Origin: Fodinibius salinus
GTDB lineage: Bacteria; Bacteroidota; Rhodothermia; Balneolales; Balneolaceae
Direction of reading: 5' to 3'
Length of the DNA stretch: 64,000 nt
Assembly: GCF_008124865.1 (NCBI RefSeq)
Contig: NZ_VNHY01000003.1
Location: 186,001-250,000 of the forward strand
The translations under genes were made by a program, and so were the position numbers. The notes beneath the pieces are model-generated. The model was not told the origin of the DNA and made no database searches. It worked only from the letters and a program-made list of their open reading frames with translations. Positions 47,494 to 50,375 of the stretch are shown in pieces. Each line of letters begins with the position of its first letter. The stretch's first letter is position 1.

Positions 47494-50232
47494 TTATGAG
47501 ATTAATTCTTCTATTTGTGTTCTAAACCAATTAGTTGAGGCAAGAACATTTTTATTTAAATTAAATTCTGCTAAATAACTTTTATCAAATTTATCTTTAA
47601 GGCTAAATGATTTTAAAAAAGTCTCTATATTGTTTGAATCAATATTATCGATAATTTTGTCTTCTGTATCCATACGTATTTCTCCAGGAATTTTTAGTTC
47701 TGGATATCCTTTTCTTGTAGATTTCAGATTGAGAACTATTTCATCTCGTTTTTCTTCCTTTTGGCGTATTAGCTCTTCTTTGTATTTATCTATGTTGAGG
47801 TTCTCAATATCTAGTTCTTCGAGATTTTTTGGATGGTATAAATAATTTTCAATGCAGTAATAATCTAAAATGATATAGTTTGTGAATTTGTTGGTTATCC
47901 TATCAATTTCTTGGTCGGTTAAGTAATCTCGATCTCTTATACCAAGGTATTTCATATTATTCCTTATTTTCTGGAACAGTGAGTAAGCGTCTTTTTCAGG
48001 TATAAAATCGACTTCATCAAGGGATAGTGAGTTAAAGATCTCTTGATTCTGATTTTCACAAAGGACCATAATCTTATCTTTCTCAGATACAGAAGGGATA
48101 TTATCAAGCTTATTTTCAACTTCAGCCCTTTCGTCTTTAAGTTGTTCAAGCTTTTCAGCATTATAGAACTTATTTCGGATGTTTTGCTCCCAATCTTCTT
48201 TATTTATAAAGGCAAATTTAAACTTGTTAAACCATTTGGCACTTTTTCGTTTTATTTCTTTAGAAGCGGTTCTCTTATTGTCTAAAATATCTGCAATTCT
48301 GTTATCTAAAGAATTATATTCGTTTTTAAGTTTTTCTTTCCTGCCTTTTAATATTTCTACTTGATTATCAGCTTTTTCTTTAAAAAGTCTTTCAAGGTGA
48401 GCGTTAAGGTCTTTTTTTAATTCCTTTACTTCTTGACTAATATTTGATATCTGTTCTTCTAACTCTTTGTTCTTACTAGTTTTTTGGTTTAGCTTTTTAC
48501 TAGATTGCTCGTATTTTCTAAGAATTTCATCTTTTATTAGTTCAGCATTTTTTTCAACTGAATTGGAAGATTTTATTTTACTCCTAATAGCATTATTCGT
48601 TAATATTTCGGTAACTGTATCGTAGGACAAATCATCACTATTTTTGAATCTAGATAAAGAAGCAATTATGTCCTCACTCACTTTTTCAGATTCGAAATCA
48701 AAATCCTTGAAAAGGAAAGGTAGTTGAAAGTTTCCTAGAACTGCCTTTTCAAATTTATCAGTTCTAGGAATCCAAAATTGTAACATTGAAACTAGTTCAT
48801 TAGGGTGTAAACAGACACTTACATTATTTTGTGAGTCAATTTTTTGTTTGAACTTATCAAATTCTAGAAAATTGAAATCTAAAGTAATGATCCAGTTTTC
48901 AATTTCTTTAGGAGAGTCAACATAATTGGGTCTAAAATCTTTTACTATATGCCATATTTTACAGTCATGTCTTAGTTTTAAATAAAATTTGTTCTCAAGT
49001 TGCTCAAACTCTTGCTTTTTCTCTTTATTATTTTGCTTTTCTTCCTCTCGTTTTTCTTTGGTTTTGCCTGTAATCCTTCTTAGCCTATAGTCTCTCTGAT
49101 CTAATATGTCGTCAACCACATCTTGTCTTTTGTTATATTCATCAAAGTCATGATTATATAATTCTAAGTCGTTTTCTCTAATTGTAACAGTAAAATTATC
49201 TAAGTACGGTGAAAAGTATTCATCTATGTCTAAAACCGTATTATTTTGGAGACATTTTAAAAAGTATTTTTTCTTAACCCCAGAAAATGCTCCTTCTTTT
49301 ACAGAAGCTTTCATTTGGTTCAAAGAAGGTCTCATCCGTTTTAGAGATTCTCGATTTCTTTCTAGTAAATTTTTGAATTCACTAATAGTTCCAGGTAGAA
49401 CGTAAAATTTTATTCTTACTTTATTTTTTATCTCATCAATGAGATCCAGTAGGGATTCCGTACTTTTATCCGAAGGGTTTTCATGTAAATCTAAAATTGA
49501 AAGCAGAAAATTAGTATCTACAAAAATTTTTAAATTTGCTTGTGACTTTGATAAGTCATAGACCCTCTGAATTGTTTCTTGATCTAAGTTTGTAGCTTCT
49601 AAGAAGAAATAAGAATTTAACTGATGCAAGATAAAGTCATTTACGATTTCATCATCTTGAGAGAAAAAGAAATTTAAAGCCTTCTTTAAATTTGTTTTAT
49701 CTTCTTTAAAACGATTAAGAAAAGATTGAAAATGTGAATAATCGGTCAGAGTAAGTTTTGAATCTCCTGCTATAAATTCATAAGTCTTAGCGCCAATCTC
49801 TTTAATTATTGGTATTAAAACATTTTTATTGAAATCTTCCCAAACTTTTTCAGCTCCTAACCTAGGGCTAAAATCGTTAACTGTTTTTTTAAATTTTTTC
49901 TTTGTGGTTTTTTCAATTTCCCGCTGATTTTGATAGGCTTCCTTGAAGGTGGCAAGTAAGTCTTCGGTTAGTTGGTAGCGTTCTTCTTTTAATGATTCAG
50001 CCTTTTGTTGACTGACTAAACGTTCTATTTGTTTTTCTATTCGGTCATTTTGTAAAGTAATATTGTATTTTTCACCTAATTTTTCACAAACCTGCTCTAC
50101 TTTTAACGGCTTATTTCCAGTTGTACCGAATATGGATATTATTAAATTTTGTATGGCATGTTCCCACCATCCAGATTCATTCAGTTTTATATGATGAACT
50201 AAGGATGCAATTTCTGATGGTATTTTTTGCAT
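47494..50232 (-). CDS. PIN-like / coiled-coil / DUF4435-TOPRIM-like protein, candidate defence factor
   Basis: Start at ATG 50232 (a TTG ten codons upstream is in frame). Length 912 residues. I do not know this family. Numbering from the ATG: residues 1-90 look like a winged-helix region. A PIN-like nuclease domain has acidic residues Asp239 (FVDTNFLLSILD), Glu285 (TISEFKNLL), Asp423 and Asp452 (IITLDFNFLEFD), followed by VCLHPNELVSMLQFW. A long coiled coil spans about 560-710. Residues of about 720-805 resemble DUF4435/TOPRIM: IMVLCENQN (Glu726), GIRDRDY (Asp767, Asp769) and YYCIENYLYHP (Glu795). There is no Walker A, so it is not an SMC/Rad50 ATPase. It is clearly more AT-rich than sdhB and recQ on either side, a sign of transfer. 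Confidence 0.7.
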   Translation of the reverse strand: MQKIPSEIASLVHHIKLNESGWWEHAIQNLIISIFGTTGNKPLKVEQVCEKLGEKYNITLQNDRIEKQIERLVSQQKAESLKEERYQLTEDLLATFKEAYQNQREIEKTTKKKFKKTVNDFSPRLGAEKVWEDFNKNVLIPIIKEIGAKTYEFIAGDSKLTLTDYSHFQSFLNRFKEDKTNLKKALNFFFSQDDEIVNDFILHQLNSYFFLEATNLDQETIQRVYDLSKSQANLKIFVDTNFLLSILDLHENPSDKSTESLLDLIDEIKNKVRIKFYVLPGTISEFKNLLERNRESLKRMRPSLNQMKASVKEGAFSGVKKKYFLKCLQNNTVLDIDEYFSPYLDNFTVTIRENDLELYNHDFDEYNKRQDVVDDILDQRDYRLRRITGKTKEKREEEKQNNKEKKQEFEQLENKFYLKLRHDCKIWHIVKDFRPNYVDSPKEIENWIITLDFNFLEFDKFKQKIDSQNNVSVCLHPNELVSMLQFWIPRTDKFEKAVLGNFQLPFLFKDFDFESEKVSEDIIASLSRFKNSDDLSYDTVTEILTNNAIRSKIKSSNSVEKNAELIKDEILRKYEQSSKKLNQKTSKNKELEEQISNISQEVKELKKDLNAHLERLFKEKADNQVEILKGRKEKLKNEYNSLDNRIADILDNKRTASKEIKRKSAKWFNKFKFAFINKEDWEQNIRNKFYNAEKLEQLKDERAEVENKLDNIPSVSEKDKIMVLCENQNQEIFNSLSLDEVDFIPEKDAYSLFQKIRNNMKYLGIRDRDYLTDQEIDRITNKFTNYIILDYYCIENYLYHPKNLEELDIENLNIDKYKEELIRQKEEKRDEIVLNLKSTRKGYPELKIPGEIRMDTEDKIIDNIDSNNIETFLKSFSLKDKFDKSYLAEFNLNKNVLASTNWFRTQIEELIS

Positions 50233-50375
50233 AGGAGGTTGAGTTATTTTTTTATCTTTCAACTAATTAAGAAAATAATTGGTACTTTTTAAACAGTGCT
50301 TTTCAATCTACGCCTTTTTTATTTGCTGGAATATGCAGATGTTATCAAAAACCAATTGCTGTTATACATTTCTGT

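Follow-up and report, generated by a model that had tools for sequence, protein, structure and literature searches.

Among described antiphage systems, PARIS is one of the closest to the gene considered here. Its effector AriB is reported to be a two-metal tRNase that is inactivated by the substitution E26A and has an active site resembling that of RNase M5, and homologues of its Toprim domain are reported to occur across many uncharacterized defence systems (PMC12409363). In the OLD-type systems the ATPase has also been described paired with HNH, PD-(D/E)XK or PIN nucleases instead of TOPRIM (PMC12839542). Here, we describe a gene of Fodinibius salinus located in a stretch of 64,000 nucleotides (contig NZ_VNHY01000003.1, positions 186,001 to 250,000; the window), in which an AriB-type TOPRIM forms the end of a body that elsewhere ends in membrane helices.

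The gene lies between sdhB and recQ, as an earlier reading made from the DNA letters (the sequence-only reading) had stated, and is an intact open reading frame of 922 residues from a TTG start or 912 residues from an inner ATG. Residues are numbered here for the longer version; residue n of the sequence-only reading, which started at the inner ATG, is n + 10. With this shift the seven acidic residues that it named are all present (D249, E295, D433, D462, E736, D777 and D779). Its statement that there is no ATPase agrees with a Pfam search, in which P-loop or other ATPase families gave no match in the 922-residue protein. Two modular sets appear to meet in the window protein, the body with its ends and the TOPRIM with its partners. 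Neither PARIS, which requires AriA, nor the family of the body, here called PIN-TM (we found no published name for it) and marked by membrane helices, covers the protein as a whole. We consider it to be probably a one-gene, horizontally acquired defence protein built from two exchangeable halves. Its features are as follows (positions in the window).

47494..50262, minus strand: whole gene, 922 residues, intact open reading frame, TTG start at 50262
47494..50232, minus strand: the gene from the alternative in-frame ATG start at 50232, 912 residues
49537..50226, minus strand: N-terminal region, residues 13-242, with homology to the G388 protein throughout and, beginning near residue 50, to the wider PIN-TM family
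48793..49536, minus strand: PIN-like domain, residues 243-490, its two halves separated by a long insert (weak profile matches, acidic residues)
49516..49518, minus strand: PIN-like D249, Asp in 13 of 14 family members (Glu in G319)
49378..49380, minus strand: PIN-like E295, Glu in 13 of 14 (Gln in G175)
48964..48966, minus strand: PIN-like D433, Asp in 11 of 14
48877..48879, minus strand: PIN-like D462, Asp in three of 14 (Asn in eight, Thr in two, Ser in one)
48388..48576, minus strand: coiled-coil segment between body and effector, residues 563-625 (heptad test)
47494..48120, minus strand: AriB-type TOPRIM effector module, residues 715-922, 208 residues (alignment, model, profile)
48055..48057, minus strand: TOPRIM E736, identical in 14 of 14 module sequences
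47932..47934, minus strand: TOPRIM D777, identical in 14 of 14 module sequences
47926..47928, minus strand: TOPRIM D779, identical in 14 of 14 module sequences

An AriB-type TOPRIM module at the C-terminus

An AriB-type TOPRIM makes up the last 208 residues. In the alignment the module is 34-42% identical to six homologous rows, and the best of five models calculated from a seven-row alignment reached a predicted local distance difference test score (pLDDT) of 87.8 and a predicted template modelling score of 0.84; two of the five were poor (pLDDT 58.8 and 56.1). The top structural match found with VIA-align was chain 8ux9_A of PARIS (Z of 10.1, 170 residues aligned, root-mean-square deviation of 4.2), followed by chain 8v46_D, also of PARIS (Z of 9.0), by the TOPRIMs of OLD proteins (Z of 5.2-5.7) and by other folds from a Z of 4.6 down. 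The matched chains (306 and 305 residues, respectively) are AriB, because AriA is the other, 464-residue chain of each entry (8ux9_B and 8v46_A). Profile comparison points the same way: hhalign aligned the module with three AriB proteins (two called as AriB by PADLOC and one annotated as DUF4435 in a BREX locus) at an E value of 2.2e-13 over 93 columns, while all 22 controls (four cross pairs, two reversed and 16 shuffled) gave E values of at least 0.23. A sequence search of the PDB with profile A6 found no AriB.

The 14 module sequences compared, three AriB proteins included, were chosen by a short stretch around D777-D779, so that the invariance of these two residues partly reflects the selection; E736 played no part in it. 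The module shares with AriB the TOPRIM fold, a Glu, a D-x-D and then the motif (C/S)-x-E-(N/S)-Y-L-x-x-P, and from the order of these motifs E736 would be the equivalent of AriB E26. It differs in that the 922-residue protein is neither paired nor fused with an AriA ATPase, its neighbours being sdhB and recQ, in that the module ends a PIN-like, coiled-coil body and in that it is too divergent for Pfam DUF4435. OLD and Gabija GajA also have an effector of the TOPRIM superfamily, but the window protein has no ATPase domain and their structural match is weaker.

The module also occurs with other partners. A single-protein scan of genome contigs gave 28 pattern matches, and at least five loci were confirmed, having approximately the last 200 residues alone in common; five is a floor because the scan requires an exact eight-residue stretch. 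In L004 the partner consists of LRR, Roc, COR-A and COR-B domains (Pfam), and in L006, L008 and L037 the module comes after ATPases, the best PADLOC match of which is AriAB. The seven-row module profile matched seven of 394 genomes of the phylum, three of them strongly (the own genome, G366 and G220); G337 (37 columns in a 43-residue frame) and G142 (E value of 3.3e-5) were not counted as strong. It also picked up genes of AriB type in G336 and G383 (PADLOC AriB, E values of 2.9e-18 and 1.1e-14), both of which adjoin ATPase genes (Pfam AAA_21 in G336; by eye in G383). In G068, where a module frame lies at the contig edge, the next genes are CARF-HEPN (Csx1-type, PADLOC E value of 6.4e-94) and Csx20 (E value of 1.2e-39), and this locus (L009:802-3285) suggests a link of the module to type III CRISPR signalling. 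The L004 module had no match in plasmids. In general terms, the occurrence of AriB-type TOPRIMs in further systems has already been published (PMC12409363).

Several of these loci were inspected individually. L004:3060-5588 and L005:3189-5717 encode LRR-Roc-COR (Roco) GTPases with an AriB-type TOPRIM at the end (L005 by eye), and upstream of the L005 gene are genes that by eye resemble type I restriction. L006:1-2810 holds two tandem ATPase-TOPRIM genes with the module in both. The N-terminal domain that precedes the module in L007:502-1767 is about 230 residues long and matches no Pfam family. An Oceanisphaera plasmid carries a BREX locus in which an ATP-binding protein and DUF4435 pair is placed between the pglX and pglZ genes (L057:1931-3810).

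One body with different ends

When the N-terminal 574 residues were searched against 244 genomes of the class, one strong homologue besides the protein itself was found, in G388 (35% identity over residues 13-572, E value of 5.9e-109); sixteen weak segments (E values of 0.0057-0.049) in 15 genomes, three of them congeners, were left out. The C-terminus of the G388 protein is formed by membrane helices. A profile of this pair matched three of 394 genomes and reached a protein in G257 (E value of 3.6e-6), which in turn led weakly to an Enterococcus plasmid protein (21.7% identity, E value of 3e-4) and from there to plasmid proteins of Sporosarcina, Hymenobacter, Arthrobacter, Klebsiella and Pantoea (E values of 4e-81 to 3e-27); five near-identical Enterococcus records and one partial Listeria match (15% covered) were left out of this set. 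With hhalign, the pair aligned with seven relatives at an E value of 1.3e-10 over 358 columns. The comparison was repeated without the G257 protein because this had been found using the pair, and gave an E value of 3.7e-8 over 366 columns, or 2.7e-5 for the window protein alone, with eight shuffled controls at 0.20 or above. A seven-row body profile matched eight of 296 genomes of the phylum, the own genome and G257 included, with an E value of 2.7e-8 for the window protein. The Klebsiella gene, used in a DNA search, matched two of 5,426 Escherichia coli genomes. In plasmids the body of the window protein gave one row (E value of 5) and the G388 protein none. The Fun(Z) protein of phage P2 was considered as a homologue and rejected (hhalign E value of 0.088).

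Membrane helices were predicted by a simple hydropathy scan in 16 members, the two E. coli proteins included. All 15 other members have one or two after residue 560; the window protein has none. The G159 member, whose frame is interrupted by a stop, was excluded from the counts of 14 and 15, and its downstream frame also shows membrane helices. The window protein has its body, including the PIN-like acidic positions, in common with the PIN-TM family, over approximately residues 50-500 in the wider family; this body bears different ends, because the 15 others end in membrane helices and the window protein ends in TOPRIM.

Residues 243-490 are likely to be a PIN domain. The ordered acidic residues of the PIN superfamily (D..E..D..D) are present, and hhalign aligned the body with eight PIN_3 sequences (the eight of 15 PIN_3 loci that passed the filter) at an E value of 7.2e-5 over 57 columns and a probability of 63%, compared with 0.57 or higher for six shuffled controls; four PIN_8 sequences gave an E value of 0.039. 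These observations make the PIN call of the sequence-only reading plausible. On the other side, no score is above any family cut-off: PIN_5 gave 13, 13.9 and 16.4 bits in the window protein against a cut-off of 27, and PIN_3 appeared in two of seven relatives, at best in the Enterococcus protein (E value of 3.3e-4, 21.1 bits against a cut-off of 27). Against the PDB, profile A5 gave nothing named PIN in 16 rows, the one row with an E value of 0.0037 being a splicing factor (8ro0_K). A body model calculated from the single sequence (pLDDT 37) was too poor for fold assignment. Residues 13-242 appear winged-helix-like, by eye only.

Whether the PIN-like domain cuts or senses bears on a different interpretation, in which both PIN and TOPRIM are active RNases, so that either could arrest the cell. 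Among the 14 members in which the acidic residues were compared (the two E. coli proteins were not among them), all four are retained only by the window and G388 proteins, as would suit two active nucleases, and a precedent is reported in the single-gene PIN protein DS-3, in which phage defence was lost when the PIN catalytic residues were changed (PMC13092281). DS-3 may be related to the window protein. Yet the third acidic residue is lost in three of the 14 and the fourth is Asp in only three, with the body still recognisable, and the part that varies is the C-terminal end, so that the PIN-like fold could be the binding or sensing part. Given this loss in part of the family, a non-catalytic, sensing PIN is thinkable, and we regard the two-nuclease toxin as rather unlikely.

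A coiled coil between the two acidic sets, also part of the sequence-only reading, is present but shorter than the linker. Six segments were chosen for a heptad test, and the signal is clear at 563-615 (shuffle p of 0.0005) and 590-625 (p of 0.001) and weaker at 575-640 (p of 0.03). The remaining segments gave p values of 0.06-0.62, and 575-725 as a whole has no clear heptad signal (p of 0.62). Three body relatives gave mixed results (p < 0.0005 for G388, in which the segment enters the membrane part, and 0.77 and 0.10 for the others), so that no coiled coil is claimed for the family.

Probable horizontal acquisition of the gene and neighbourhoods of its relatives

The gene is probably horizontally acquired and its distribution is patchy. 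Its G + C content is 28-32% in 500-base windows compared with 40-50% in the 3 kb on each side, which bears out the AT-rich, foreign look described from the letters. The protein is present in single copy in its own genome, the only one of 146 genomes searched with a full-length match; the other matches were in G068 (C-terminal part) and G142 (a weak ATPase match). None of the 11 congeners matched the gene. sdhB is present in all 12 genomes of the genus, and in two of the 11 congeners sdhB and recQ lie side by side, approximately 0.1 kb apart, with the gene missing; in the remaining nine, the 1.5 kb covered downstream of sdhB showed no recQ. By eye, the stretch just before recQ in the window is similar to the terminator tail present at both empty sites. 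These distribution searches exclude homologues that are single-copy core genes in all relatives. The whole protein had no match in plasmid and phage searches, nor did four queries match viral contigs.

For the whole protein, no decisive match came from Pfam, NCBIfam, PADLOC, PHROGs or PDB sequences. Matches to PADLOC ZorA3 (E value of 2e-4, residues 515-682), a PHROG tape-measure family (E value of 0.0035) and a Pfam EDR1-type family (E value of 0.024) were set aside as composition, since they lie on charged helical stretches, and Pfam Rep3_C (E values of 0.0013-0.002) was under its cut-off.

Relatives of the body are found in mobile and restriction-linked surroundings. Of the 12 plasmid records with body relatives, eight are typed as mobilizable or conjugative. 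The two copies in E. coli are surrounded by P2-type genes of prophages, and one of them is flanked by genes for the tail sheath and for tail-fibre assembly. Phage P2 itself has fun(Z) in the interval from the V-operon terminator to the sheath gene FI, and in a published screen the fun(Z) locus is named as a second site in P2-like phages that is rich in defence genes (PMC9519451). The E. coli gene at L094:9001-10977, beside a P2-type tail sheath gene in the fun(Z) region, is annotated as a hypothetical protein.

These surroundings raise the question of whether the protein guards a restriction system, a role reported for PrrC, and would be triggered when a phage blocks restriction. Restriction operons, as called by PADLOC, contain three of the 15 other members. 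In G257 the one-strand order is hsdM, X, hsdS, hsdR, where X is the PIN-TM gene; in G338 X follows hsdS and hsdM of a type I system with hsdR nearby; and in G285 it lies between a DUF1016-like gene (PADLOC PDC-S02) and a type III res, with mod upstream. A fourth, the Hymenobacter plasmid copy, adjoins an annotated methyltransferase and a helicase. L092:5771-14917 holds the PIN-TM gene within hsdM-X-hsdS-hsdR, a position that we take to resemble that of prrC in its own operon. In G338, an ATPase gene (PADLOC NsnB, E value of 3.9e-44) and small genes, one HNH-like by eye, lie near the PIN-TM gene and the type I operon (L087:1895-4976). As precedents, prrC co-localizes with hsdMSR (PMC3506569) and PARIS is described as sensing an anti-restriction protein (PMC9122126).

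By analogy, the window protein would have in common with PrrC and RloC a nuclease restrained until a phage disturbs the cell, and the body relative in G257 lies within a type I operon. It differs in that the family searches gave no match to an NTPase, including the N-terminal ABC NTPase that is a feature of PrrC (PMC3506569), and its gene is not beside a restriction operon. No restriction genes were noticed around the other 11 members in what was looked at, often 2.5-4 kb on each side. In the own genome no type I partner is evident, as only a marginal N6_Mtase match was seen (20.7 bits against a cut-off of 20.4, in a 289-residue frame). A role as a restriction guard is accordingly unlikely.

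Mode of action and place among defence proteins

One conserved body carrying different ends is the usual sign of a sensor with an exchangeable effector, and from this we infer the division of labour in the one-gene defence protein proposed here. The N-terminal body (helical region, PIN-like domain and coiled coil) would sense infection or keep the protein inactive. The TOPRIM would be the effector, probably released through a changed oligomeric state, and once freed it would cut RNA, presumably tRNA by analogy with AriB. Growth would then halt before phage production, as in abortive infection. A single-gene defence factor, abortive or RNA-sensing, had also been the guess of the sequence-only reading.

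Several observations weigh against this interpretation. Taken alone, the window protein scores only 0.4 bits as a whole and 14.8 bits over its best stretch against the six-row family profile in plain HMMER, so that the link of the body to its family is one at the profile level, and the combination of body and TOPRIM was found once only. A PIN-TM protein had no match in 50,697 phage records. Reading the window by eye from 44 to 55 kb showed no further defence gene, with no family-library scan made elsewhere in the window. The TOPRIM model gave no PDB match at an E value of 0.001 in plain Foldseek, VIA-align commonly reaches a best Z of 7-8 when no true match exists, and the idea of RNA cleavage rests on a structural alignment with 8-9% identity. 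Finally, Pfam DUF4435 (PF14491) is absent at an E value of 10 from the whole protein and from all seven module rows, and matched none of 116 relatives; among the AriB proteins themselves it matched that of L057 (E value of 2e-7), reached only 18.2 bits in that of L040 and did not match that of L039. Of the DUF4435/TOPRIM-like domain described in the sequence-only reading, the TOPRIM thus stands, as an AriB-type domain supported by the PARIS structure match and the AriB profile match, and the Pfam name does not.

The target of the TOPRIM might instead be DNA, of the invader or of the host, as for OLD or GajA. OLD TOPRIMs are indeed the next structural matches after PARIS, but the closer structure is AriB, which is described as a tRNA cutter (PMC12409363), and we hold a DNA target to be quite improbable. 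An RNA-processing enzyme with no part in defence, in which PIN and an RNase M5-like TOPRIM (both RNase-type domains, and the AriB active site is likened to RNase M5; PMC12409363) would mature a cellular RNA, is very improbable for a gene that is AT-rich, inserted between housekeeping genes and missing from all of the congeners, with its only full-length match in its own genome and relatives of either half in restriction operons, plasmids and prophages and beside CRISPR genes.

For the one-gene defence protein, a wider interpretation can be put forward tentatively, at somewhat less than even chances: the body may represent an undescribed, mobile family of one-gene immune sensors in which the killing end is exchanged (membrane helices in most, an AriB-type tRNase here), with the PIN-like fold acting as sensor and not as toxin, and AriB may be a general effector that serves LRR-Roc-COR proteins, AriA-like ATPases, the PIN body and perhaps CRISPR signalling (Csx1). 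A literature search, the range of which stopped short of preprints, most subscription journals and supplements, found no publication on a PIN-TM or PIN-TOPRIM protein. The locus amounts to a natural swap experiment, in that the body carrying a TOPRIM nuclease here is followed by membrane helices in its 15 relatives, an indication that the body is the sensor. It also places the PARIS effector in at least two architectures besides AriA, the PIN body and LRR-Roc-COR, and the range over which tRNA-cutting immunity may be sought is widened to match.

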